Shown: piece after piece, positions 1-44,127 of the stretch
Layout of the letters: every line of letters begins with the position of its first letter
Numbering within the stretch: the stretch's first letter is position 1
Virus record (IMG/VR): IMGVR_UViG_3300036900_000055
Location: 1 to 44,127 of that record
Length of the DNA: 44,127 nt
DNA from: a virus
Strand: one strand, 5' to 3'
Notes under the pieces: generated by a model
Told to the model about the DNA's origin: nothing
Database searches by the model: none
The model's input: the letters and a program-made list of their open reading frames with translations, nothing else
Made by a program: the position numbers and the translations under genes

Positions 1-127
1 GAGGGTGTGGGTCCGGCGCCAGGGGCCATAGGGGTGGGCTGATAGTCATAGGCTATCGGGGCGATAGCTTGATAGGGGGCCAGGCTATTGGGGCCCAGGG
101 GCCAATAGGGAGCAGGGGCCAATAGGG
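1..127. repeat. Left copy of 127-bp terminal duplication
   Basis: Identical to 44001-44127, base for base as far as I can read it. Removing one copy gives a 44,000-bp unit. A length of exactly 127 is the usual maximum k-mer of de Bruijn assemblers, so an assembly overlap of a circular or permuted genome is more likely than a biological terminal repeat. Confidence 0.95.
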
Positions 128-3435: not shown

Positions 3436-3538
3436 CTTGCTCGAAACCCTCACCGCAATCTCCCTGGCTAGCCTGGTCTTCATGATCGGGCTAGCCATTT
3501 TCCTCCACCTACCAAAGGCAATATGCGATCAGCAATAA
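3422..3538 (+). CDS. Small single-pass membrane protein, 38 aa
   Basis: The reading frame starts at an ATG inside the end of the preceding gene and runs MGPTNLLETLTAIS, then a hydrophobic helix of about 18 residues ending near HLPKAICDQQ. It overlaps the following methyltransferase start by 16 bp. The chain of overlapping small membrane genes supports a real, translationally coupled gene, but the length alone makes it uncertain. Confidence 0.5.
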   Translation: MGPTNLLETLTAISLASLVFMIGLAIFLHLPKAICDQQ

Positions 3539-4176
3539 GCACCCCCGAATCTCACCCCCTCTATCGGAGTGAGGCCAAGGTCAAAGAGACCACCGAATGG
3601 CTCCTATCGGAGAACCACGAGGTTTTCCAACTTTGGATGTTGGATCCTGACGAGGGGGCCCACTCCCTCAAGGTCCTGGAGGCTCTCCAACTTCCTCACT
3701 CGCACCCGGCCCAAATCCTGTCGCTCGGCTGTGGCGTGGGCGGTATGGAGGCCCATTGGAAGAAAGCCCGACCAGACTTCCAATTCGACCTTCTCAACCA
3801 ATCGAAGGCCCAGCTGGACTTGTGCGTCTGCGAGGGGTTTCTGATACACTCTAAGGCCGAGGACTATGAGCCCATGTCGGCCCCGGACGTTACGCTCATA
3901 TCCTACGCGCTCGGCCATATGGACATACCCAAAGTGCTAGACAGGGCCTTGGAATACACCTCTGGCCCGGTCGTGGTATTGGACGTGTTCGACACCAACG
4001 GTCAATTCTGCGAAATAATGGACTACAACGCTCCTAGCACCGCTCAACTGGCCGGTCGAGGATTCCATAGGGTCAAGACCCCCCCTTGGTCGGTACACCC
4101 TTTCATCAAATTGGAGCACGGCATAGCCGAGATAGTTCAACGCAACTCAACCCCTTACCTGTGGATCTCAGAATGA
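3523..4176 (+). CDS. Class I SAM-dependent methyltransferase-like protein, 217 aa
   Basis: Residues 65-75 (ILSLGCGVGGM) match motif I (the SAM-binding GxGxG loop) of class I methyltransferases, followed by a helix, then DLLNQSKAQLDL at the position of the acidic second strand; residues about 125-155 carry a strand-helix pattern ending VVVLDVFD. There is no DPPY or PC motif, so an ordinary DNA adenine or cytosine methyltransferase is unlikely. A small molecule, protein, or modified base could be the substrate. It lies in the early rightward arm and overlaps both neighbours. Confidence 0.7.
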   Translation: MRSAISTPESHPLYRSEAKVKETTEWLLSENHEVFQLWMLDPDEGAHSLKVLEALQLPHSHPAQILSLGCGVGGMEAHWKKARPDFQFDLLNQSKAQLDLCVCEGFLIHSKAEDYEPMSAPDVTLISYALGHMDIPKVLDRALEYTSGPVVVLDVFDTNGQFCEIMDYNAPSTAQLAGRGFHRVKTPPWSVHPFIKLEHGIAEIVQRNSTPYLWISE

Positions 4177-7610: not shown

Positions 7611-8521
7611 TGAAAGAATCCAACCCCGGCCTAGACAAGGTCACCCCCCTGCCCCCCTCCAAAGGAGTTCCCCCCATGCCCAAACCCCCTGCTGAAGACG
7701 TCACCCCGAAAGGGGAGACACCCCCGCCCGAGCCTAACAAGCCGGGCACCGCAATAGCCAACTGGAAGGACCGTATGGCCGTCCTGACGAAGCAAACCAA
7801 GCTCGCTGAGAAGCCAGCTGGGGGCTTCATCAGCTTCAAGGGGGGCCGTATGACCCTCGCAGACGAGATCATCCCGGGCGACAAGCTCAGGTGTATCATC
7901 ATCGACTACCGCAAGGACTATGAGTTCTACGACAAGCCGTATAACCCGAACACCCCCGCGATCCCGTCCTGCTATGCGATCGTCCGCCCCCACGAGGACC
8001 TGACCCCCTGGTCGCGTGACCCGGAGACAGGCGAGTGGAAGACCGAGGCCAGCGACCCCCAGGTGGCTCCCGGCGTGATGTGCGAGGATTGCCCGATGTT
8101 CCAGTGGGGCAGCGACCTCAAGGGTGGTAAGGGCAAGGCCTGTAAGACGAGCCGCCGCCTCCATGTCTTCGCCGCCGACGACTGTACCAATCCCGCCGAC
8201 GTGGCTCGGGCCTCGTACATGACGATGATCCCGCCCGCGACGAGCATCGACAACTTCCAAAAGGTCGCCAACCAGATCGTCAACGTCCTCGACACTCCCA
8301 TCTTCGGGGCCGTGGTCGAGATCAGCGTTACGCCCCACGACCGCTTCCTGTTCATGGTCCACTTCAAGATCATCGAGCAGATCAAGGACGAGGGGCTGAT
8401 GATGGCCCTCCTGACCCGCCACGAGTCGATCAGCGCGAAGCCGGTCAATATGCCTAAGCCCGACGCAGACGACGCCGAGAAGGCAGCCAGAGGCGCTGCT
8501 ACGCCAAGCAAGAAGTTCTAG
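7610..8521 (+). CDS. Putative ssDNA-binding-like protein with Cys cluster, 303 aa
   Basis: Starts at the ATG overlapping the upstream stop, with AAGGA a suitable distance before. The first 60 residues are rich in Pro and Lys and look disordered. A folded core follows (about 70-275). It carries CEDC, then C in GKGKACK, and a further Cys in ADDC, a possible zinc site. The C-terminus is Ala, Lys and Asp rich. Position just ahead of the polymerase genes and the layout suggest a DNA-binding replication protein; this is inference from context, not from a recognised domain. Confidence 0.75.
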   Translation: MKESNPGLDKVTPLPPSKGVPPMPKPPAEDVTPKGETPPPEPNKPGTAIANWKDRMAVLTKQTKLAEKPAGGFISFKGGRMTLADEIIPGDKLRCIIIDYRKDYEFYDKPYNPNTPAIPSCYAIVRPHEDLTPWSRDPETGEWKTEASDPQVAPGVMCEDCPMFQWGSDLKGGKGKACKTSRRLHVFAADDCTNPADVARASYMTMIPPATSIDNFQKVANQIVNVLDTPIFGAVVEISVTPHDRFLFMVHFKIIEQIKDEGLMMALLTRHESISAKPVNMPKPDADDAEKAARGAATPSKKF

Positions 8522-8537
8522 TTCAGACTAGCCAAAA

Positions 8538-8574
8538 GGCCCCCGTTCCAGAGTTATAATCTAGAACGGGGGCC
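8538..8574 (+). promoter_or_regulatory. -10 promoter inside an 11-bp-arm palindrome
   Basis: Perfect arms GGCCCCCGTTC (8538-8548) and GAACGGGGGCC (8564-8574) enclose a 15-base loop with TATAAT at 8555-8560. The start would fall within the right arm, so the RNA could not form this hairpin; the symmetry would act at DNA level, as an operator or cruciform, or in read-through transcripts. Confidence 0.65.
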
Positions 8575-8601
8575 GTCCCCGTAACCCACTAAGGAATGTA
8601 T

Positions 8602-8973
8602 ATGATAGAGAATGCTGAGAGCAAGGTCAGCCGTCAATTCTTGACGATGATCGAGAACCACCACCTGGTAAACCTGATGCTCGCGGAGTACACCTCCTCC
8701 GGCCTGGCCGACACCGAGTTCGCGGACTACGCAATGACGAAGATCACCCTGCGACCGGGGACCGTCATCAAGGACCACACAATCAAGGCTCGCCGCGATC
8801 AGTTCAAGATCGTAGCCAACAAGGCTAAGTACCAGGCACCGGCCCCGGGGGCCGACCAGGCTATGCTTCTCGCCCACGAGCAGCGGATCGCGGAGCTAGA
8901 GCATCGCGTATCAGTCTTGGAGGGATGGATCAATTCGACGTTCCCGGCCAAGGGACCCCGAAAGGCCATCTGA
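8602..8973 (+). CDS. Hypothetical protein, 123 aa
   Basis: Two ATGs are available, at 8596 and 8602; AAGGA at 8591-8595 touches the first and is correctly spaced (6 bases) from the second, so I use 8602. The N-terminal 75 residues look globular; residues about 90-110 form a coiled coil (LLAHEQRIAELEHRVSVLEG). Unrecognised. The stop overlaps the next start (TGATG), marking an operon with the two genes that follow. Confidence 0.75.
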   Translation: MIENAESKVSRQFLTMIENHHLVNLMLAEYTSSGLADTEFADYAMTKITLRPGTVIKDHTIKARRDQFKIVANKAKYQAPAPGADQAMLLAHEQRIAELEHRVSVLEGWINSTFPAKGPRKAI

Positions 8974-9317
8974 TGAACGAGCCCGATGTCTTCATCGTTG
9001 AATGGGGAACCATTCTCCGTGACTTACAGAGGGCTCGTCCTGATGTCCCTAAGTCACTGGTCGAGTCCCCTGTAAAGGTCGCCTACGGGGAGGGGTACGC
9101 AATGTCGAATCCCCGTTCGGTGGCTATCGTCGCTGCGCAGAAGTTCGCAGCCGACTACGACTTACCCAAGGGTAAGAACTCAACGGTACTTCCCACCCTA
9201 GTAAAGGACAGGTTTTGGGACTATATCGCAACGGCGCTAGCAGACGCGGTCATCATTTGGGACCGCGAAATTAACGACAATGTGTTCAACTGGGCACAAG
9301 GTAACAACGAGGAATGA
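8973..9317 (+). CDS. Hypothetical protein, 114 aa
   Basis: The ATG overlaps the stop of the upstream gene, which is why I prefer it to the in-frame start at 8925. The protein is soluble, with helical segments around residues 38-60 and 75-100 rich in Trp, Ile and Val (DYIATALADAVIIWD). No motif is recognised. It lies in the operon that leads into DNA polymerase. Confidence 0.75.
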   Translation: MNEPDVFIVEWGTILRDLQRARPDVPKSLVESPVKVAYGEGYAMSNPRSVAIVAAQKFAADYDLPKGKNSTVLPTLVKDRFWDYIATALADAVIIWDREINDNVFNWAQGNNEE

Positions 9318-9318
9318 T

Positions 9319-9693
9319 ATGAACGGTATTCACGTAATTGATCTGAGCAAGAGCAGCGACATCGGCAAGGCCATCGACGAGGCTATCACGGCCCTCTTGG
9401 GCGGTACGGAGGAGAGCATGCGGACGGTACCCCTCCGCGACAAGTCTCAGCAAGACATGAGGGACATCCTCTTCAAGCAAGGTGACGAGCTGAACGAGAA
9501 GTGCGAGTTCCTCAAGCGAATCCTCAATCTGACGGCCGACCTGATCGACCTGATCAACGAGGACCACATCAAGGAGGACGGCCTGGTGTTCTTGGAGAAC
9601 CGAGCGAAGCAAGCGGCGGTCACCAAGAAGATGATCGAGGTAATGGACCAGGGCCGTAAGGCGGACAAGGCGAATGGCGCAGCCGGTCGTTGA
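9319..9693 (+). CDS. Hypothetical helical protein, 124 aa
   Basis: The ATG at 9319 has GAGGA 5-9 bases upstream. The product is almost wholly helical and charged, with heptad-like spacing over residues 40-115 (FKQGDELNEKCEFLKRILNL). Unrecognised. It overlaps the DNA polymerase gene by 20 bp, so a link to replication is likely by context only. Confidence 0.75.
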   Translation: MNGIHVIDLSKSSDIGKAIDEAITALLGGTEESMRTVPLRDKSQQDMRDILFKQGDELNEKCEFLKRILNLTADLIDLINEDHIKEDGLVFLENRAKQAAVTKKMIEVMDQGRKADKANGAAGR

Positions 9694-11476
9694 CTTTGAG
9701 ACCAAGCCGATCATCTTCGGCTCTGGCCTCGCCCCCGCCCCGGTAGGTGTATCAATATACCTACCGGGGCAGGGGAACACCTACTATAGCTGGGGCCACC
9801 CCGGCTATAACCCCCACACTTATGAACAGGGCCGCAAGGCCCTGTCTGCCGTCTGGGATCACAAGCCGTTATTCCATAACTGCAAGTTCGACATCGGTGT
9901 CTCGGTAGAGCATATGGGCCTCCCCTGGCCGGATCGCTACGACGACACAATGTTCATGCTATTCCTGATGCATCCCCTAGCGGATAAGTTGTCTCTTAAG
10001 CCCTCAGCGGAACGGCTGCTGGGCCTCCCCCCAGACGAACAGCAGGCGGTCTATAAGTGGCTCAAATCCCACTTCAAAGGACCATTCGTCAACGGGGACA
10101 AGGAGATCACTGAGACCAACTTCGGGGGCTACATCGGTTACGCCCCCTACGAGATAGTTGCCCCCTACGCCGAGGGGGACACATTCCGTACCCACGGGCT
10201 CTCTGAGCTCCTGCGGCCCCAGTTGGAGGTATCGGGGCAAATGCCCGCCTACGAGCGTGAGCTCAAGATAGCCAAGATAGCCTACCACATGGAGTTCGTG
10301 GGGGTGCGGGTGAACCGGGGGGCCCTGGAGGAGGACTTCGACAAGTACCAGAAGATACAGACGGCCCAGGAGGATGTGATACGGGGCTACCTGGGGGACA
10401 TAGATGTCTCTAAGCCTCGACAAATCGCCGCCGCCCTGGAGGCTAGCCCCTACGCCAAACCCCTACGGAAAACCCCTACGGGGCTGCTATCCACAGCCAA
10501 GGACTCCCTTGAGGAGGCGGTGACCGAGCCGGGGCTGCTTAAGGCCCTGAGGTACCGGGGGACCCTCCATACCCTGACCTCAAACTTCTACAAGAACTGG
10601 ATCAACTTTAGCGGAAGGGATGGGAATGTTCACCCCTCGTGGAACCAAGTCAGATCGGATAAGGGCGGTGCGCGCACGGGCCGCTTCTCCTGCTCGGAGC
10701 CCAACTTTCAGAACGTGCCGACGGAATTTGACGATGCTGTCCTGGAGGGGCTCGACATACCGTTTATGCGGCAGTACATACTCCCAGATGACGGGGAGAT
10801 TATTGTACCTGCTGACTATAACGGGCAGGAAATGCGTATCATGGCTCACTATGCCGAGGGGCGGGCCATGGAGATTTACCAGACCGACCCAACAGCGGAC
10901 TTTCACGCCGTTGCCTCAGCCCTTATCCTCCAATACACCGGCCTGTCCGTCCCCCGAAAGATGTGTAAGATTGTGGGCTTTAGCCTGCTCTATGGGTCGG
11001 GGGTTACGAAACTGGCTCAACAACTGGGAGTAGACTATAACACGGCAGCACAAATCAAGAAGGCCTACTTCAAGGCAATCCCCGGTCTCCAAGCGTTCGT
11101 TGATCAGTTCGATACCCGTACTCAGGTCAAGACCTGGGGCGGTCGTGTGCTCCCGGTGGAAGAGCCGAAGCTGTTCAAGGGGTCCTGGTGGACGTTTAAC
11201 TACAAGCTATGTAACTATCTCATTCAAGGTAGCGCGGCGGATCAGACCAAGGAAGCCATTGTGCGGTACGACCAATACAAGCACCACGGAAACATCCTAA
11301 TGACCGTCCATGACGAGTTGGTGATAACGGTTCCCCGCGAGCATCTCAAGACGGAGGTCACGATACTCCGCGCCGCGATGGAGGATCAGCCGGGCTGGGA
11401 TGTGCCGTTCCGCTCGGAAGTGAAGTACGGAGAAGATTGGCACAACTTGGAGAAGTATCTTGAATCGACCCACTAG
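9674..11476 (+). CDS. Family A DNA polymerase with 3'-5' exonuclease domain, 600 aa
   Basis: Replicative polymerase. Exonuclease motifs are visible: DFET (7-10), NCKFD (69-73) and YAEGD (165-169), all with their acidic residues, so proofreading should be active. Polymerase motif A is DYNGQE (381-386), with the metal Asp and the steric-gate Glu kept but the usual S-Q-I replaced by N-G-Q; motif B runs R428 to G441 with the invariant Lys, Phe and Tyr-Gly; motif C is HDE (546-548). There is no 5' nuclease domain. At 600 aa it is shorter than Pol I and about T7 size. It would have to read a modified template if the DNA is hypermodified. Confidence 0.95.
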   Translation: MAQPVVDFETKPIIFGSGLAPAPVGVSIYLPGQGNTYYSWGHPGYNPHTYEQGRKALSAVWDHKPLFHNCKFDIGVSVEHMGLPWPDRYDDTMFMLFLMHPLADKLSLKPSAERLLGLPPDEQQAVYKWLKSHFKGPFVNGDKEITETNFGGYIGYAPYEIVAPYAEGDTFRTHGLSELLRPQLEVSGQMPAYERELKIAKIAYHMEFVGVRVNRGALEEDFDKYQKIQTAQEDVIRGYLGDIDVSKPRQIAAALEASPYAKPLRKTPTGLLSTAKDSLEEAVTEPGLLKALRYRGTLHTLTSNFYKNWINFSGRDGNVHPSWNQVRSDKGGARTGRFSCSEPNFQNVPTEFDDAVLEGLDIPFMRQYILPDDGEIIVPADYNGQEMRIMAHYAEGRAMEIYQTDPTADFHAVASALILQYTGLSVPRKMCKIVGFSLLYGSGVTKLAQQLGVDYNTAAQIKKAYFKAIPGLQAFVDQFDTRTQVKTWGGRVLPVEEPKLFKGSWWTFNYKLCNYLIQGSAADQTKEAIVRYDQYKHHGNILMTVHDELVITVPREHLKTEVTILRAAMEDQPGWDVPFRSEVKYGEDWHNLEKYLESTH

Positions 11477-12163: not shown

Positions 12164-12445
12164 CTGGAGAGTCAGATTCAGCGAAAGGTGGTGGAGTTCG
12201 CTCGCCACCGGGAAGTTATCGCTCGCAAGCTGAGTTTCGGGGAGGGCTGGCCTGATTACATGTTCTTATATAAGGGCAAGGTCCTCTTCATAGAGTTCAA
12301 GTACCCGGGCGAAAAGCTCAGGCCACTACAGGAGTATGTAGTGGGCCTGATCCGAAAGCAGGGATTTGAAGTGGTAGTAGTGGATAACCTAATTGACGGC
12401 CGCAAGGTCATAAGGAAGCTAGTAGATGAACCCGATAGTAATTGA
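12164..12445 (+). CDS. VRR-NUC domain nuclease, about 93 aa
   Basis: Matches the stand-alone phage VRR-NUC nuclease family: an N-terminal ESQIQRKVVEF helix, then GWPDYMFLYKGKVLFIEFK with the Asp and Glu-x-Lys catalytic residues, then a Gln in LRPLQEY. Such enzymes act on branched or flapped DNA. The start is unclear: the family-typical ESxIQ begins before the first GTG (12188), and upstream only CTG at 12164 or ATT at 12161 are possible in a frame that is open from 12158. I used the CTG. It overlaps the next gene by 20 bp. Confidence 0.8.
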   Translation: MESQIQRKVVEFARHREVIARKLSFGEGWPDYMFLYKGKVLFIEFKYPGEKLRPLQEYVVGLIRKQGFEVVVVDNLIDGRKVIRKLVDEPDSN

Positions 12446-13247
12446 CAACTGGAGAGACTTCTCCCAAGTCATGATAGAGACCAAGGACCTGGACCCGACC
12501 TATCCTGTCCTCCGCGCCCTGTTCGACCTCCACGACAGCGAGTGGAACGGTCGATTCATCCTCCACTACATGTGGTTCTATAACCTCCGCGCCGCCTACA
12601 ACGTCGCGGGTAGTACCACGGAGCGCACCTTCTGGGACAAGTGTCGCATCGATGGGGCCGCAGACCTAGTTAAGCGCCGGGGGGCCCGCAGGCACTTCCG
12701 GGGGCTAGTGGCCTCCAAGGCTATCGAGCATATGGCGGGTAAGGGCCTGACCCCGGCGCAGATCGTAGCCGATATGCACAAGGAGCACTACCCGGCCATG
12801 TTCAAGCATATCCAGAACAAGTACCAGGGATGCTCTCTGGGCCCCTACTATACCTGGAAGTTGATGGATTGGTACGACATCTGCCTCGATTGGCCGATAA
12901 CGATGGCGGTCGAGGACGCGGTCAAGTATATGCCTGACGTGCCGAAGGAAGCAGCCGCTGAGTTCTTCCCCCACCACGACCTTAAGGACACGGTCAAGAT
13001 CGTTCTCGACCACGTGTCGAAGTTCGATCACCCGGTCAAGGCCGGGGAGAAGTGCGGCCTGGGCGAAGTCGAAACGGTCATTTGTACCCTCAAGGGCTAC
13101 CTCAAGACCAAGGCCCACTGGATCGGGGAGGACATAGCCGACGCTTGGAACCTCCTGGGGGACCTGCCCTCGAACATCACTGACCACATTCCGGCCCGGA
13201 TTCCTGAGGGCCTCTACATTCGCGGGGAGTATCGCCATGTCGCGTGA
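12426..13247 (+). CDS. Putative amino acid:DNA transferase (thymine hypermodification), 273 aa
   Basis: Resembles, by my recollection of the family, the amino acid:DNA transferases (ADDT/AADT, earlier grouped with alpha-glutamyl/putrescinyl-thymine pyrophosphorylases), which attach an amino acid to phosphorylated 5-hydroxymethyl-dU in DNA. Points of similarity are the N-terminal aromatic helix (RFILHYMWFYNLRAAY, about 43-58), the basic RRGARRHFRG block (84-93) and GPYYTWKLMDWYD (139-151), like the family's WK-x-x-D-x-x-E segment. It lies in the same operon as the TS-like, kinase and helical proteins, which supports the call. Otherwise it is a conserved phage protein of unknown role. Confidence 0.55.
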   Translation: MNPIVIDNWRDFSQVMIETKDLDPTYPVLRALFDLHDSEWNGRFILHYMWFYNLRAAYNVAGSTTERTFWDKCRIDGAADLVKRRGARRHFRGLVASKAIEHMAGKGLTPAQIVADMHKEHYPAMFKHIQNKYQGCSLGPYYTWKLMDWYDICLDWPITMAVEDAVKYMPDVPKEAAAEFFPHHDLKDTVKIVLDHVSKFDHPVKAGEKCGLGEVETVICTLKGYLKTKAHWIGEDIADAWNLLGDLPSNITDHIPARIPEGLYIRGEYRHVA

Positions 13248-14601
13248 TTGGATGCCTAAGGACTATCAAGAGAAGGCCATTGGGTTCGCCCTAGCGCGGG
13301 CGGGCTGCGGGCTTATGCTCGACCCCGGCCTGGGGAAGACATCTATCACCCTCGCCTGTATCTCGATCCTCGTTGCGGAGAAGGAGATCAGGAAGACACT
13401 TGTGGTCGCCCCCCTCCGGGTCTGCCACACCGTATGGCCCAACGAGGCTAAGAAGTGGTCTGACTTTAATCACCTGAAGGTAGCGAACCTCTGTAACAAG
13501 GGCGAGGGGGAGCGCAAGCAAATGATAGCCGCCCCCAACGATGTCTACCTTATCAACCCGGAGAGCCTGGTTAAGGTCATTCCGCTCCTCACCAGGGACT
13601 TTGACCTGCTCGTATTGGACGAGAGTACGAAGTTCAAGGACACTACGACTCAGCGCTTTAAGGCGCTCAAGAAGGTCCTGTTCAGCTTTAAGCGCCGTAT
13701 GATCCTAACGGGTACGCCTGTGCCTAACGGGGTAGCCGACCTCTTTGGGCAGATGTTCGTCGTGGACTTCGGGGAATCCCTGGGGAAGTACATTACCCAC
13801 TTCCGTAACGAGTTCATGCATCAGTCCCCGGGGAACCTGTACGAGTACCATCTGAACCGAGGGGCAGAGGAGATCATCTACAAGCGGGTAGCCGACAAGC
13901 TCCTGCGTATGGACGCCCGCGATCATCTGGATATGCCCGAACTCATCAACAACTTCATCGGGGTCGAGCTTCCCCCGCACCTGCGTAAGCAGTACAAGGA
14001 GTTGGAGGACAACTTCGTCACCAAGATGAACGACAACGAGTCGGTCGCGGTGTTTAATGCGGCCGCAGTGGGGGTGAAGCTCCGCCAGATGGCTAACGGG
14101 TTTATCTACACGGACATCGAGACAGATCGCAGGACGATAGACCTACACGACGAGAAGATTGACGCCCTGGAGGAGTTGATCGAGGAAATGCAAGGTAGGC
14201 CTCTCCTGGTCGCCTACGAGTTCCAGGCTGACGCCGACCGGATACTCAAGAGACTCCCCGAGGCCATCGACCTGGGGAAGGTCAAGAATCCCCAGATAGT
14301 CATCGACAAGTTCAACAACGGCCATATCCCGGTCCTCCTGGCCCACCCGGCTAGCGCGGGGCACGGCTTGAACCTCCAGGAGGCTTGCTCTACCGTCTGC
14401 TGGTTCGGCATCACGTGGAACCTCGAACACTACCAGCAACTTATCGCCCGCGTCTGGCGTCAAGGCCAGATCGCGCCCTTTGTAATGGTCCACCACATTG
14501 GTACTAAGGACACCAAGGACGAAGATGTAATGAAGGCCCTAGAGGCCAAAGACCGGACGCAAACCCGATTTAATGACGCACTTAAAGCCAGGAGGGCTTA
14601 A
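13237..14601 (+). CDS. SNF2/DEAD-like superfamily 2 helicase, 454 aa
   Basis: An ATP-driven DNA translocase. Motif I is GLGKT (31-35), motif II DEST (128-131), motif III LTGTP (157-161), and the C-terminal motif VI is QLIARVWRQGQ near 408-418, with a motif V-like ASAGHGLNLQ just before. Both RecA-like domains are complete; there are no extra accessory domains. Such compact SNF2 proteins are common in phage replication modules, in place of UvsW-like helicases. It overlaps the upstream gene by 11 bp. Confidence 0.93.
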   Translation: MSRDWMPKDYQEKAIGFALARAGCGLMLDPGLGKTSITLACISILVAEKEIRKTLVVAPLRVCHTVWPNEAKKWSDFNHLKVANLCNKGEGERKQMIAAPNDVYLINPESLVKVIPLLTRDFDLLVLDESTKFKDTTTQRFKALKKVLFSFKRRMILTGTPVPNGVADLFGQMFVVDFGESLGKYITHFRNEFMHQSPGNLYEYHLNRGAEEIIYKRVADKLLRMDARDHLDMPELINNFIGVELPPHLRKQYKELEDNFVTKMNDNESVAVFNAAAVGVKLRQMANGFIYTDIETDRRTIDLHDEKIDALEELIEEMQGRPLLVAYEFQADADRILKRLPEAIDLGKVKNPQIVIDKFNNGHIPVLLAHPASAGHGLNLQEACSTVCWFGITWNLEHYQQLIARVWRQGQIAPFVMVHHIGTKDTKDEDVMKALEAKDRTQTRFNDALKARRA

Positions 14602-15174
14602 ATGACTATTCTTAAGATACACGGCTGCTCGGGGGCGGGTAAAACCACCTTCGCCCGTTCCCTGATCGAAGCCGCCGCCACCATCGATCATCTACACGAG
14701 ATCAACAACCGACGCAAGATCGTGGGCTACCGCCTCGACTTGCTAGAGCTAGACGTGCCCGTGTTCCTGCTGGGGAGCTACGAGAGCAACTGCGGGGGAG
14801 TCGATACGGTCGGCACCGCCCAGGAGGTCATGGAGATGATTGACCGCTATGCGAAGGACGGCCACATAGTACACGAAGGCCTCCTCCAGAGCACCTACTA
14901 CGGGGCGATGGGGGAGCACTCCAAGAAGTATGGGGACGGCTACGTGTACGCTTTCCTGGATACCCCGATCAACGTCTGCCTCGACAGAGTGGTGACCCGC
15001 CGCGCTACCAACGAGAGCAAGAACAAGTTCAACCCTGAGCTGACGAGGAACAAGTGGAATACGATCAAGCGACTACAGGACAAGCTATCCAAGGAGGGCC
15101 AGCACAAGGTAGCCGTCCTCAACTACGAGAAGCTGCCCCTAGCCCAGCTCCTACAGCTTTTGGAATCCCGATGA
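14602..15174 (+). CDS. P-loop kinase, probable catalytic part of a 5-hydroxymethyl-dU DNA kinase, 190 aa
   Basis: Walker A is GCSGAGKTT (8-16). The segment YESNCGGVDTVG (about 59-70) and the later VLDR-type region CLDRVVTRRA resemble the P-loop kinases found with thymine hypermodification genes, which phosphorylate 5-hydroxymethyluracil in DNA. A general small-molecule or nucleotide kinase cannot be excluded. In relatives the kinase is, as I remember, linked to a helical domain; here that domain is a separate gene (15505-16335). The start directly follows the helicase stop, with AGGAGG upstream. Confidence 0.65.
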   Translation: MTILKIHGCSGAGKTTFARSLIEAAATIDHLHEINNRRKIVGYRLDLLELDVPVFLLGSYESNCGGVDTVGTAQEVMEMIDRYAKDGHIVHEGLLQSTYYGAMGEHSKKYGDGYVYAFLDTPINVCLDRVVTRRATNESKNKFNPELTRNKWNTIKRLQDKLSKEGQHKVAVLNYEKLPLAQLLQLLESR

Positions 15175-15395
15175 CTATCGGCTCCACCCCTATGTCCGGC
15201 GCAGGGTACAATCGCATCCGGGCCGCCCAGCTGGAGCTGGAGAAAGTGATGGAAGAGGAGTTGGTTAAGTCTGGCTGGTCGAAAGGCTGGCGCAAGAAGA
15301 ACAACCTCACCTTCTGGATCAAGCCCTTCCCCAAGGAAGGAATTGTAACCGCGCTATCCCTTGAGGACGCGCTCAAATGGGAATATGAACTATGA
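15171..15395 (+). CDS. Hypothetical protein, 74 aa
   Basis: The ATGA overlap with the kinase stop fixes the start at 15171, although the frame is open further upstream. The product is helical at first (NRIRAAQLELEKVMEEELVK), then a short Trp and Lys rich part. Unrecognised. It sits between the kinase and the helical kinase partner, so it may be a small member of that pathway, or a linker remnant. Confidence 0.65.
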   Translation: MTIGSTPMSGAGYNRIRAAQLELEKVMEEELVKSGWSKGWRKKNNLTFWIKPFPKEGIVTALSLEDALKWEYEL

Positions 15396-15508
15396 GCACC
15401 CCTGAACTCCTCGTCGCCCTGACCATCGTCGTCGGCATCCCCTGCGCTACGATCATCACCGTAGCCTACCTGTTCGTCAAGGGAATGAAGAAGGACCTCG
15501 AAAAATGA
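15392..15508 (+). CDS. Small single-pass membrane protein, 38 aa
   Basis: Begins MSTPELLVALTIVVGIP, with one membrane helix (about residues 6-28) and a basic C-terminus (KGMKKDLEK), predicting N-out, C-in topology. It overlaps both neighbours by four bases (ATGA type), so it is part of the operon. No family is recognised. Confidence 0.6.
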   Translation: MSTPELLVALTIVVGIPCATIITVAYLFVKGMKKDLEK

Positions 15509-16335
15509 TGGCCTATGAGGATGACCTGTATAACTGGATACAGGAGAGGGAGAGGGTGCGAATTAGGCGGGAGGAGGAGCGCCAACCCCCACCGTGGACT
15601 AGGGACCAGATCATCCGAACTACCCGCTTCTGTAACATCCGCCGGGAGGACGACAAGGTCACTCGGTGGATCAAGGAGAATTGGCGGGACCCCTATCGAC
15701 ACCATGAGAACCTGGCCTTCTCTATGTGCGTCGCCCGTACCGTCAACTGGCCGGATACCCTGGAGAAACTGGGCTTCCCCGGGGTATGGGATCGGGACCG
15801 ATTCATATATGTAATGGACTCCCTAAACCAAGCCGGGATCAAGGCCTGGACGGGGGCCTATATGGTCACCGGAGGGTTCTCCAAGGGCGGGGAGACCAAG
15901 CAGACGATCATCGCCCGGGTCCTGGACGAGGCCCAGCCGATGTGTAGGACGATCAAGAAGAGCATGCCCCTAGGGCAGGCCTACGAGATCATTCGGACGG
16001 CCCGGGGGCTAGGCACGTTCCTAGCCGCCCAGGTCATAGCCGACCTCAAGTACACCCCCCTGCTCGAATACGCCGACGACTGGTGGACATTCTGCGCCCC
16101 CGGCCCCGGCTCGTCCCGGGGACTCAACTACCTACACGAGCGGCTCCCCACCACTTCGATCAATGCTGCTCAATTCTCCAAGGAGGTGAACGAACTACGA
16201 CCCAAGATCGCGTACAATACCGGCTACGACCTGACCGCCCACGACACGCAGAACTGCCTGTGTGAGTTCAGCAAGTACGTCCGTATCAAGTATTTCAAAG
16301 GCAGGGCTAAGACCCAATTTAAGGAACCATCATGA
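15505..16335 (+). CDS. HMUDK-helical / thymine-hypermodification family protein, 276 aa
   Basis: Strong resemblance to the helical domain found with 5-hydroxymethyl-dU DNA kinases (HMUDK_hel, related to HhH DNA glycosylases). Diagnostic parts are WTRDQI then RFCNIRREDDKVTRWI (31-56), GPGSSRGLN (200-208), and TAHDTQNCLCEFSKY (244-258). In known systems this module works with the kinase that phosphorylates 5-hydroxymethyluracil in DNA. Here it is a stand-alone gene between the kinase and the TS homologue. The start is the ATG at 15505 or the next codon; both overlap the upstream stop. Confidence 0.8.
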   Translation: MMAYEDDLYNWIQERERVRIRREEERQPPPWTRDQIIRTTRFCNIRREDDKVTRWIKENWRDPYRHHENLAFSMCVARTVNWPDTLEKLGFPGVWDRDRFIYVMDSLNQAGIKAWTGAYMVTGGFSKGGETKQTIIARVLDEAQPMCRTIKKSMPLGQAYEIIRTARGLGTFLAAQVIADLKYTPLLEYADDWWTFCAPGPGSSRGLNYLHERLPTTSINAAQFSKEVNELRPKIAYNTGYDLTAHDTQNCLCEFSKYVRIKYFKGRAKTQFKEPS

Positions 16336-17315
16336 TGCATTTAGTTAACCGGAACATTAACCAGATGTTCCCCGAGGCGATGTGGCGGCTACAAATGGAG
16401 GGGGCCGCATCCGGCTCCCGTAACGGGCAGGTAATGAGGCTCCCCTTCCCTGCCCTGTTGGAGTACTCCAACCCTGCCGAGCGGGTCTTGTTCTCGGAGG
16501 AGAGGGACGCCAACCCGTTCTTCCACCTGTTCGAGGCTATCTGGATGCTCTCAGGGAGCAACGAGGTAAACATACCGGCCAAGTACGCGGCGCAGATCAG
16601 GGAATACTCCGACGATGGGGTGACCCTTCATGCGGCCTACGGCCACCGCTGGCGCCTCCACTTTGGGGTGGACCAGATCGAGGCGGTGATCTCGATGCTC
16701 AGGCGGGACCCCGAATCACGCCGTGCTATGATCGCTATGTGGGACCCCCATAGTGACCTGAACCGGGAGGGCAAGGACCTGCCCTGTAATACCCACATCT
16801 ACTTCGATATCAACCAGCCGTTCCTCAATATGACGGTGTGTAACCGGAGCAACGACCTGGTGTGGGGAGCCTGCGGGGCTAACGCCGTTCACCTATCTAT
16901 CCTCCACGAGTACATCGCTCGGGCGGCGGGATTCCTACAGGGGACCTACTACCAGTTCACGAACAATCTCCACGTGTACGAGAAGCATTGGCCCCTGTTC
17001 GACCTGGGGGTGATCTCCGACCCTGATTCGGACCCGTACTCCCAACACAAGGTCCTCCCGGTCCCCCTGTTCAACGACCCCACCGAGCGCCAGGACTTCG
17101 ATGCGGATTGCCGCTACTGGACGGACCCCAAGTATGACCTCCGCACGGCGTTCTTCGCCGGTGTGGTAGCCCCCCTCTCCCAGGCCTGGGAAGCCCATAA
17201 GAAGGGGGACCAAATGTGGGCTCAACAGTATGTCCAGAACTGTATCGCTACCGACTGGCGGCGTGCGGCGAAGGAGTGGCTGGAGCGCCGGTATAAGCCC
17301 AAGGAAGCCCTCTAG
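16332..17315 (+). CDS. Thymidylate synthase homologue, probable dUMP hydroxymethylase, 327 aa
   Basis: All core thymidylate synthase features are present: R30, Glu68 (FEAIWML), YGHRWR (103-108), RR at 130-131, catalytic Cys152 in LPCNTH, the phosphate and base site NRSND (171-175), Asn184, and H214/Y216. The Asn equivalent to E. coli N177 is kept, with one residue inserted just before it, predicting dUMP rather than dCMP as substrate. Ordinary thymidylate synthase activity is possible, but with the kinase, HMUDK-helical and transferase-like genes alongside, hydroxymethylation of dUMP to hmdUMP is the better inference. The start overlaps the upstream stop. Confidence 0.85.
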   Translation: MMHLVNRNINQMFPEAMWRLQMEGAASGSRNGQVMRLPFPALLEYSNPAERVLFSEERDANPFFHLFEAIWMLSGSNEVNIPAKYAAQIREYSDDGVTLHAAYGHRWRLHFGVDQIEAVISMLRRDPESRRAMIAMWDPHSDLNREGKDLPCNTHIYFDINQPFLNMTVCNRSNDLVWGACGANAVHLSILHEYIARAAGFLQGTYYQFTNNLHVYEKHWPLFDLGVISDPDSDPYSQHKVLPVPLFNDPTERQDFDADCRYWTDPKYDLRTAFFAGVVAPLSQAWEAHKKGDQMWAQQYVQNCIATDWRRAAKEWLERRYKPKEAL

Positions 17316-17327
17316 GAGGCGTCGGAG

Positions 17328-17347
17328 CGATTTTGTGGGGTACCCTA
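17328..17347 (+). repeat. 20-bp repeated element after the TS-like gene
   Basis: Identical in sequence and in position relative to the upstream stop codon to the element at 4421-4440 (minus strand). Function unknown: 3'-end processing, pausing or protein binding are possible. Confidence 0.85.
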
Positions 17348-17423
17348 CCGGGGCCCCCCTAGTCGGCCCGCCCGCCTCGATTCTGTCTTGTTCCCGGGGG
17401 TCTATAACCGGCCCCCTCCCCCC

Positions 17424-17447
17424 GTAAAATCGTATATACTCTGAATT
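17424..17447 (+). promoter_or_regulatory. Promoter giving a likely leaderless message
   Basis: TATACT at 17435-17440 with CCGTAAAATCGTA upstream. Seven bases separate it from the ATG at 17448, so transcription should start at or next to the A of the ATG. No Shine-Dalgarno sequence is present. Confidence 0.6.
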
Positions 17448-17921
17448 ATGAACTTCAAAACGCTCTACAACGCCGGGGCCGTGCGCCGGTACCATACGCA
17501 GAACCTACTCAAGGATCAGGACCTAGCTGCCCACTCGTGGGGGGTAGCCCTAATCATCCGCGAGATCATGCCGGGGAACCTCCACCTAGTCGAGGCCGCG
17601 CTGACTCACGACCTGGCCGAGTCCGTGACGGGGGACATCCCCTATACGGGCAAGAAGAAATACCCCAAGCTAAAGCAAACCAGCCTAGAGGCCGAGCGGG
17701 AGTTTGCTATGGTTAACGGGACCCCCCTCCAGCTCACTCCTGTAGAGCAGAAGTGCCTGGCTTGGGCGGATATGTTCGAGTGTTACCTGTACTCGCTGAG
17801 AGAGGTCGATATGGGTAACAATCTGATGCGGTACGTGGCCGAAACCGCGAGGGAGGCACTAGTTGCTATGGGCCCCCCGACCAAGGAAGCCGATAAATTG
17901 TTTAGGAGTTACAATGGCTGA
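17448..17921 (+). CDS. HD-domain deoxynucleotide phosphohydrolase (YfbR-like), 157 aa
   Basis: The H...HD...D metal site is complete: H29 (AAHSW), H54-D55 (THD), with E58 and D63 (GDIP), and D108 (WADMFE). The layout matches YfbR-like 5'-deoxynucleotidases and the phage enzymes that destroy a canonical deoxynucleotide, such as DatZ of Z-genome phages. Beside the TS-like and DUF3310 genes it could remove dTMP or another competitor of the modified nucleotide; the substrate cannot be read from the sequence. Its message looks leaderless. The stop overlaps the next gene. Confidence 0.85.
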   Translation: MNFKTLYNAGAVRRYHTQNLLKDQDLAAHSWGVALIIREIMPGNLHLVEAALTHDLAESVTGDIPYTGKKKYPKLKQTSLEAEREFAMVNGTPLQLTPVEQKCLAWADMFECYLYSLREVDMGNNLMRYVAETAREALVAMGPPTKEADKLFRSYNG

Positions 17922-18204
17922 AGAACAAGGCGCTCACTACAAGACTGTTCCTGGGGAGCAGCATCACGAGCGGGCGATCCGGTTGAACCTTAATTGGTAC
18001 GCCGGTAACATCACGAAGTATGCGGAGAGGGCCCCCCACAAGGGTCAGCTGATCGAGGACCTGATCAAGGTACTCGACTACACCTGTATGTGGCTTGCTA
18101 CGGAGAACCTGCGGCAGGACCAGCACGACCGTATCAACCGTGTCCTCGCTAAGTTGGACGATAGCGGTGCCGAGCCTACTAGTGCTTACACTAACCAAAA
18201 ATAA
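17914..18204 (+). CDS. DUF3310 protein (T7 gp1.7-like nucleotide kinase family), 96 aa
   Basis: The pattern HYKT..., NWYAGNITKYAERAPHKG and DLIKVLDYT (residues 8-60) matches DUF3310, the family to which phage T7 gp1.7, a dNMP kinase acting on dTMP and dGMP, is assigned. This protein is shorter than gp1.7, so kinase activity is not certain. Next to the TS homologue it is a candidate for phosphorylating hmdUMP, a step otherwise missing from the pathway. I use the ATG at 17914, with TTAGGAG upstream. Confidence 0.75.
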   Translation: MAEEQGAHYKTVPGEQHHERAIRLNLNWYAGNITKYAERAPHKGQLIEDLIKVLDYTCMWLATENLRQDQHDRINRVLAKLDDSGAEPTSAYTNQK

Positions 18205-30317: not shown

Positions 30318-30989
30318 TCACCACCTTGTTTCGTCGTTGATGTCCCGCCGCCACTCGTCTAGGGCCTCCGCCACTTCCTTGTACTTCTCCGGGGGCAGGT
30401 TACGAATGCGAGCGATGTTCTCGTGTAGGTAGGCGGTACAATCCCAGCAGTCTCGGGATGTTTGCTCCTTCCCGTAGTAGGGGGGCACTAGGTCCTTACA
30501 CCGCGAGTTGACGAACTCCATCACCCGCTCCCGGGACCAGTCCTGAATGGGAAACCTATAGGTGATCCCGTTCTCTACGTAACCGTCATTGATCGGGCCC
30601 TTGAGGGCGTCCTCCCCCCGCTGGCCACGGTAGACGGTGGTAGCCCCTAGTTGGCGAGTAGCGACCTCCATGGGGTACCACAGGGACCGATTGCAACACT
30701 CGAAATAGGGCTGGTACTTGATGGGGTTCAAGCCGAAGATATGGCCGATAGTCGTGAACTTTACGGGGACCACATCTACAGGCCGACCGTACATTTCTAA
30801 GTGGCGATCCCGGTAGCATTCCTTGAAGATCAGGTGAGGGTGGTACGCTGCGACCTTCTTGAGGTACGCCTCCCGCTCGGGGTAGGCCCCATCGGTGGAG
30901 GCAGTAAGCACTACTAGACCCGGCGTGTTCTTGAGAAGCTCAAGACAAGCCAGTGAGTCCACGCCGCCGGAGAATTGTAGGACTTCCAT
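30318..30989 (-). CDS. PAPS-reductase-family PP-loop ATP pyrophosphatase-like protein, 223 aa
   Basis: The PP-loop SGGVDS is at residues 7-12, and the general adenylation fold follows (VVLTASTDGAYPERE, then YRGQRGEDALKGP near 120). The C-terminus has RDCWDCTAYLHENI, two Cys that could serve in sulfur transfer or metal binding. Such proteins are usually annotated as phosphoadenosine phosphosulfate reductases, but the chemistry of phage members is unknown. It sits inside the ejection-protein genes, and the start overlaps the upstream stop, so it is co-expressed late. Confidence 0.8.
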   Translation of the reverse strand: MEVLQFSGGVDSLACLELLKNTPGLVVLTASTDGAYPEREAYLKKVAAYHPHLIFKECYRDRHLEMYGRPVDVVPVKFTTIGHIFGLNPIKYQPYFECCNRSLWYPMEVATRQLGATTVYRGQRGEDALKGPINDGYVENGITYRFPIQDWSRERVMEFVNSRCKDLVPPYYGKEQTSRDCWDCTAYLHENIARIRNLPPEKYKEVAEALDEWRRDINDETRW

Positions 30990-44000: not shown

Positions 44001-44127
44001 GAGGGTGTGGGTCCGGCGCCAGGGGCCATAGGGGTGGGCTGATAGTCATAGGCTATCGGGGCGATAGCTTGATAGGGGGCCAGGCTATTGGGGCCCAGGG
44101 GCCAATAGGGAGCAGGGGCCAATAGGG
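44001..44127. repeat. Right copy of 127-bp terminal duplication
   Basis: Identical to 1-127; see that entry. Confidence 0.95.

Follow-up and report, generated by a model that had tools for sequence, protein, structure and literature searches.

A predicted 5-hydroxymethyl-deoxyuridine-based thymidine hypermodification cassette in a podovirus genome

Introduction

What kind of DNA base would be made by the gene cluster found at 12.2-18.2 kb in IMG/VR virus record IMGVR_UViG_3300036900_000055, whose full stretch of 44,127 nucleotides (the window) was analyzed here? A first-pass annotation of this DNA had assigned the cluster to a pathway of 5-hydroxymethyl-deoxyuridine monophosphate (5-hmdUMP) synthesis, phosphorylation at the DNA level and amine transfer. 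We identified family members for each of these steps, in keeping with that assignment. It is highly probable, in our estimation, that this region represents the core of a thymidine hypermodification pathway based on 5-hydroxymethyl-deoxyuridine (5-hmdU), with the amine adduct probably being the end product.

Results

All of the genes named previously are present as intact plus-strand open reading frames (ORFs) within 12426-18204. They encode an amino acid:DNA transferase (AADT), the two parts of a 5-hmdU kinase, a thymidylate synthase (TS) homolog and two smaller proteins:

12426..13247, plus strand: AADT superfamily member, 273 aa, assigned by phmmer, profile and predicted fold
14602..15174, plus strand: putative P-loop 5-hmdU DNA kinase (kinase half), assigned by Pfam HMUDK_HMUD1 and profile
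15505..16335, plus strand: HMUDK helical-domain protein (aGPT-Pplase1), encoded separately from the P-loop protein, assigned by Pfam PF18723
16332..17315, plus strand: TS homolog, predicted dUMP hydroxymethylase, assigned by phrog_5131 and PDB match
17448..17921, plus strand: HD phosphohydrolase, YfbR/DatZ-like, assigned by Pfam, PHROG and phmmer
17914..18204, plus strand: DUF3310 / nucleotide-kinase-like small protein, assigned by Pfam PF11753

A search of these proteins against the expected families recovered the P-loop kinase, HMUDK_hel and TS, but not the transferase family. The Pfam ADDT model (PF18724) gave no match to the window AADT at E <= 1, nor in a six-frame search at E <= 10; the model matches eight of nine aligned AADT family members, the window protein being the sole exception. 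The earlier description of this protein as AADT-like nevertheless stands on other grounds. In the PDB, phmmer matched the window protein only to 8z2m, titled 'Glycinyltransferase' (E 4e-6); the sequence printed for this match corresponds to gp46 of phage PaMx11. With tblastn, homologs were identified in phiW-14 (gp109), PaMx11, Pam3, and Rhizobium, Acinetobacter and Rhodoferax phages. A hidden Markov model (HMM) built from the M6, PaMx11 and phiW-14 AADTs detected the window ORF at 2.2e-22, with no second hit under E 1. An AlphaFold2 model, calculated from the window protein and those of related contigs (pLDDT 92.9, pTM 0.89), matched only 8z2m and 8z2n by Foldseek (E 1e-9, TM 0.75), again with nothing else below 1. 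The family-invariant residues D23, P24, Y26, R88, R89, R92, G139, K145, E216 and T217 are all retained. By sequence, profile and predicted fold, therefore, the window protein is a member of the AADT superfamily and homologous to PaMx11 gp46. It is predicted to exchange the phosphate of 5-phosphomethyl-dU in DNA for an amine. The PDB title of the PaMx11 glycinyltransferase names 5-phosphomethyl-2'-deoxyuridine as substrate, which fits an order of kinase followed by transferase.

We constructed a phylogenetic tree for 30 AADT sequences. The window protein fell into a podovirus clade (support 99/96) that is separate from both the glycine clade (96/97) and the phiW-14 clade (100/99); it was not placed within the glycine (PUGT) clade, to which the M6 and PaMx11 AADTs belong; these reportedly use glycine as donor (for PaMx11 the PDB title also indicates this). 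Three positions, 141, 144 and 222, all located in blocks rich in invariant residues, are W, F and W in the glycine clade, whereas they are Y, W and L (M in one sequence) in the window clade and Y, W and L/I in the phiW-14 clade. The smaller residue at position 222 could let in a larger amine, if the hypothetical assignment of these positions to the pocket is correct. The new element, as judged from tree and alignment, is a podovirus AADT clade that is distinct from the glycine clade and carries phiW-14 residues at three motif positions.

Both parts of the 5-hmdU kinase reported by the first-pass annotation were confirmed. The P-loop protein passes the Pfam HMUDK_HMUD1 model (29.3 bits, cut-off 27) and is matched at 6.9e-25 by an HMM of M6 gp54 and PaMx11 gp49. 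The helical-domain protein scores 143.8 bits with HMUDK_hel (PF18723; cut-off 25), is 31% identical to M6 gp55 over 288 aa, and is matched at 1e-37 by an HMM of the M6 and PaMx11 helical parts; the motifs quoted earlier for it lie in conserved alignment blocks. PHROG phrog_800 labels the P-loop kinase 'terminase small subunit', as it does in M6, PaMx11 and relatives. Given the cassette context, this label on a 5-hmdU kinase is probably a propagated naming error. Two whole genomes, L027 (Rhodoferax phage P26218) and L031, include an AADT, a P-loop kinase and a TS but no HMUDK_hel, and the helical protein may therefore be dispensable for the kinase step. Separately, HMUDK_hel occurs without other cassette genes in the stretch examined of L012, L013 (332-kb record) and L018 (170-kb record).

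The TS homolog scores above the curated Pfam cut-off, matches phrog_5131 at 4e-106 and shares 44-46% identity with its counterparts in PaMx11 and M6, with an invariant PCN motif. Cys152 and Asn184, the two residues singled out previously, do not vary across this protein and eight aligned phage homologs. The top PDB match of the TS homolog is a CMP 5-hydroxymethylase (5b6d, 7.6e-23), approximately 30 bits above true thymidylate synthases (6auj, 4e-13). Where the CMP enzyme has Asp, the window protein has Asn184, which is consistent with specificity for uracil and not cytosine. Directly after the catalytic Cys, the nine aligned phage enzymes all have Asn, as opposed to His in the true synthase shown. 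This protein thus appears to be of the hydroxymethylase type, with dUMP as its predicted substrate.

The HD phosphohydrolase also proved as first described, passing both the Pfam YfbR-like (3.3e-12) and HD_3 models; it additionally matches phrog_7076, a dATP triphosphohydrolase (6e-13), and by phmmer DatZ (6zpa, 0.0015). DatZ is a dATP hydrolase. Infection by phiW-14 is accompanied by a dTTPase (PMC5977210). By analogy with both, the HD protein probably clears competing thymidine nucleotides, its presumed substrates. The DUF3310 protein passes PF11753 (28.4, cut-off 24) and matches the nucleotide kinase phrog_236 (3e-9); the family call is retained, although the gene more likely starts at 17914 instead of 17863.

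To place the cassette among known systems, we compared it with characterized phages. In Pseudomonas phage PaMx11, AADT, P-loop kinase, helical protein, TS homolog, HD protein and DUF3310-like protein follow one another as in the window, and gp46 (8z2m/8z2n) has a fold homologous to the window model. The PaMx11 cassette represents the route from N-alpha-glycylthymidine (N-alpha-GlyT) to 5-aminomethyl-deoxyuridine (5-NmdU). In PaMx11, however, the AADT belongs to the glycine clade and is followed by a flavin adenine dinucleotide (FAD) oxidoreductase (gp47) and an acetyltransferase (gp48); the window has a SNF2 helicase at this place and neither enzyme anywhere. Pseudomonas phage M6 and Bordetella phage MW2, which are of the 5-aminoethyl-deoxyuridine (5-NedU) type, likewise cluster TS, P-loop kinase, helical protein and AADT homologs, but carry pyridoxal phosphate (PLP) and radical S-adenosylmethionine (rSAM) enzymes that the window lacks. 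Rhodoferax phage P26218 and the Manatee Spring podovirus resemble the window in having helicase, AADT, P-loop kinase, TS and HD genes in one run with no known tailoring enzyme, and differ in that their AADTs belong to a different clade and neither genome includes HMUDK_hel. Delftia phage phiW-14 shares with the window an AADT (gp109, which would be the putrescine transferase) with the same 141/144/222 residue pattern, an HMUDK_hel protein, and the lack of M6-type PLP/rSAM or PaMx11-type FAD homologs. This 157-kb phage has its AADT gene apart from HMUDK_hel, however, and the protein is only 21% identical to that of the window and occupies a separate, well-supported clade.

The first and last 127 bases of the window (1-127 and 44001-44127) are identical, and both ends adjoin inside a relative, G004. 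The window, from an uncultured virus, is therefore a complete circular assembly of approximately 44.0 kb, though the record is classed as linear. Completeness makes the absence of tailoring enzymes informative: no homolog of the M6 PLP enzyme, M6 rSAM enzyme, PaMx11 FAD lyase or acetyltransferase was found in the complete window genome, and the PLP, rSAM and FAD searches recovered their positive controls. The first-pass annotation had seen no PLP or rSAM enzyme, and this statement is now on firmer ground. Searches for the PLP, rSAM and FAD enzymes were also negative for phiW-14, P26218 and the Manatee phage, as well as for five relatives. Elsewhere in the window, a protein encoded amid structural genes on the minus strand (30318-30989) falls slightly below the Pfam PAPS-reductase cut-off.

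The earlier gene list omitted two members of the run, a SNF2-family helicase and a 74-aa ORF. These, the first gene of the run and a distant candidate are as follows:

Starts 12188, plus strand: VRR nuclease, first gene of the 12.2-18.2 kb series of plus-strand genes
13237..14601, plus strand: SNF2/DEAD-type helicase (Pfam SNF2-rel_dom 5.3e-23, Helicase_C 4e-9)
15171..15395, plus strand: conserved 74-aa ORF, overlapping the kinase stop codon
3523..4176, plus strand: methyltransferase-like protein (weak Pfam MTS match), a speculative tailoring candidate only

The gene order resembles that of phages PaMx11, M6, Pam3 and RHph_I65, and the arrangement recurs in approximately ten related viral contigs, being kept in the close relatives L002-L007 and in the more distant L008-L011, L021 and L022. 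(Viral contigs were searched with single AADT proteins; a mixed AADT alignment offered no conserved stretch.) PolA, PD-(D/E)XK and VRR nucleases precede the cassette in relatives wherever the contig extends far enough. In comparisons with the close relatives L004 and L005, the ratio of nonsynonymous to synonymous substitution rates (dN/dS) of the cassette genes is 0.00-0.28, and these genes evolve under purifying selection. Such conservation and selection argue that the arrangement is not due to chance. The helicase lies inside the cassette and occupies the same place in podovirus relatives; any role for it in modification would be putative. The 74-aa ORF, for which a Pfam search gave nothing, has amino acid identities of 100% (L004), 93% (L005), 69% (L007) and 64% (L010), with dN of 0 at dS 0.18 against L004.

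The gene at 3523-4176, located 8 kb upstream of the cassette, exhibits a weak Pfam MTS match (E 0.02), a poor AlphaFold2 model (pLDDT 49) and no relative in a PDB search. The window shares it with its three closest genomes (G003-G005); G006-G010, P26218 and the Manatee phage lack it. A different methyltransferase-like gene is found between helicase and kinase in L009 (3785-4552), L011 (8330-9085) and L021 (8394-8990), and beside the AADT in L016 (354-1100); these four are mutually related and unlike window 3523-4176. The slot that they occupy is where M6 and PaMx11 hold their tailoring enzymes. This family had no relative in the phage collection and only chance-level PDB matches, and scans with two of its members revealed no further contigs. 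In L015, genes for a sulfotransferase-like protein (7968-8690) and a TET-associated glycosyltransferase (9190-10005) stand in place of AADT and kinase and adjoin HMUDK_hel and TS. Variation of this slot in L009, L011, L021, L016 and L015 suggests alternative putative chemistries on 5-hmdU.

Discussion

Together, these observations suggest the following pathway. The TS homolog would produce 5-hydroxymethyl-dUMP, which would be built into phage DNA, while the HD hydrolase would reduce the thymidine nucleotides that compete with it. Once the DNA has been replicated, its 5-hydroxymethyl groups would be phosphorylated by the P-loop protein, probably acting together with the helical-domain protein; the AADT would then exchange this phosphate for an amine. 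The predicted end product is an N-linked aminoacyl- or polyamine-thymine at part of the T positions, a modified base that would serve in evasion of restriction. The adduct is probably final because no recognizable finishing enzyme is encoded, and the example of phiW-14 indicates that core genes alone can suffice for a mature base.

Several points weigh against this reading. The window AADT is divergent, being only 21-23% identical to the phiW-14, PaMx11 and M6 enzymes and missed by Pfam ADDT. Many window genes are unannotated, and 3523-4176 resembles a methyltransferase, such that tailoring by an unrelated enzyme is possible; host enzymes could also modify the adduct. Our analysis shows that the proteins belong to these families, that the cassette is conserved and under selection, and that the genome is complete and lacks homologs of the known tailoring enzymes; the donor amine, the protection of the DNA and each reaction assigned to this phage are inferred.

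That the divergent AADT is inactive, and the cassette halts at 5-hmdU or 5-phosphomethyl-dU, might be proposed from the missing Pfam match and from its place among the fastest-changing cassette genes. We rejected this as very improbable, given an ORF that is intact in all close relatives, dN/dS of 0.16-0.25 against L004 and L005, the retained invariant residues and a confident fold match. Even less credible is that these genes only supply ordinary thymidine nucleotides, with the TS homolog acting as a normal thymidylate synthase. TS, HD phosphohydrolase and DUF3310 proteins are indeed general in nucleotide metabolism, but this explanation was also rejected, since it leaves the HMUDK kinase, helical protein and AADT unaccounted for and since the TS homolog is nearer to a solved hydroxymethylase than to a true synthase.

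Alternatives concerning the product are harder to dismiss. The donor could be glycine, yielding N-alpha-glycylthymidine as from PaMx11 gp46 before the lyase step: the only solved homolog is a glycinyltransferase, and the family-invariant residues are common to both. We regard this as unlikely, however, because the window AADT is not part of the glycine clade and differs from it at positions 141, 144 and 222, where it agrees with phiW-14. A core pathway whose adduct is then processed by an enzyme not belonging to the known tailoring families, for example 3523-4176, to give a methylated or otherwise altered base seems to us somewhat more doubtful still. This proposal draws on retention of 3523-4176 by the window together with the three genomes closest to it and on the different methyltransferase-like gene in or beside the cassette of L009, L011, L021 and L016. 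The first three of these have no 3523-type gene, so that, among the genomes checked, the two types do not occur together (the L009 contig is a fragment). On the other hand, 3523-4176 is distant from the cassette, is not significantly related in sequence to the genes of the cassette type, and has only a weak methyltransferase match and no confident model; the sample is small.

We therefore favor the core pathway with an unprocessed adduct. Its membership in a known pathway is well supported, and the final base can be predicted in outline, not in identity. The suggestion that an unprocessed adduct would perhaps be new is not upheld: such N-adducts are known as alpha-putrescinylthymine of phiW-14 and alpha-glutamylthymine of SP10 (PMC5977210). 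For this reason a core-only cassette, which phiW-14 also has, is not a new kind. It is conceivable, though we would not favor it, that the podovirus AADT clade uses an amine unseen in DNA, or that the adduct is finished by a methyltransferase-like enzyme from an unstudied family (that of the cassette gene in L009, L011, L021 and L016, or that of 3523-4176 in the window group), either of which would yield an undescribed hypermodified thymine.

With this cassette, a podovirus lineage contributes its own AADT clade to a pathway that is varied by donor amine and finishing enzyme. The Y/W/L versus W/F/W positions provide a concrete hypothesis for the choice of donor, and the methyltransferase-like and glycosyltransferase genes in the same slot of sister phages hint at further base chemistry.

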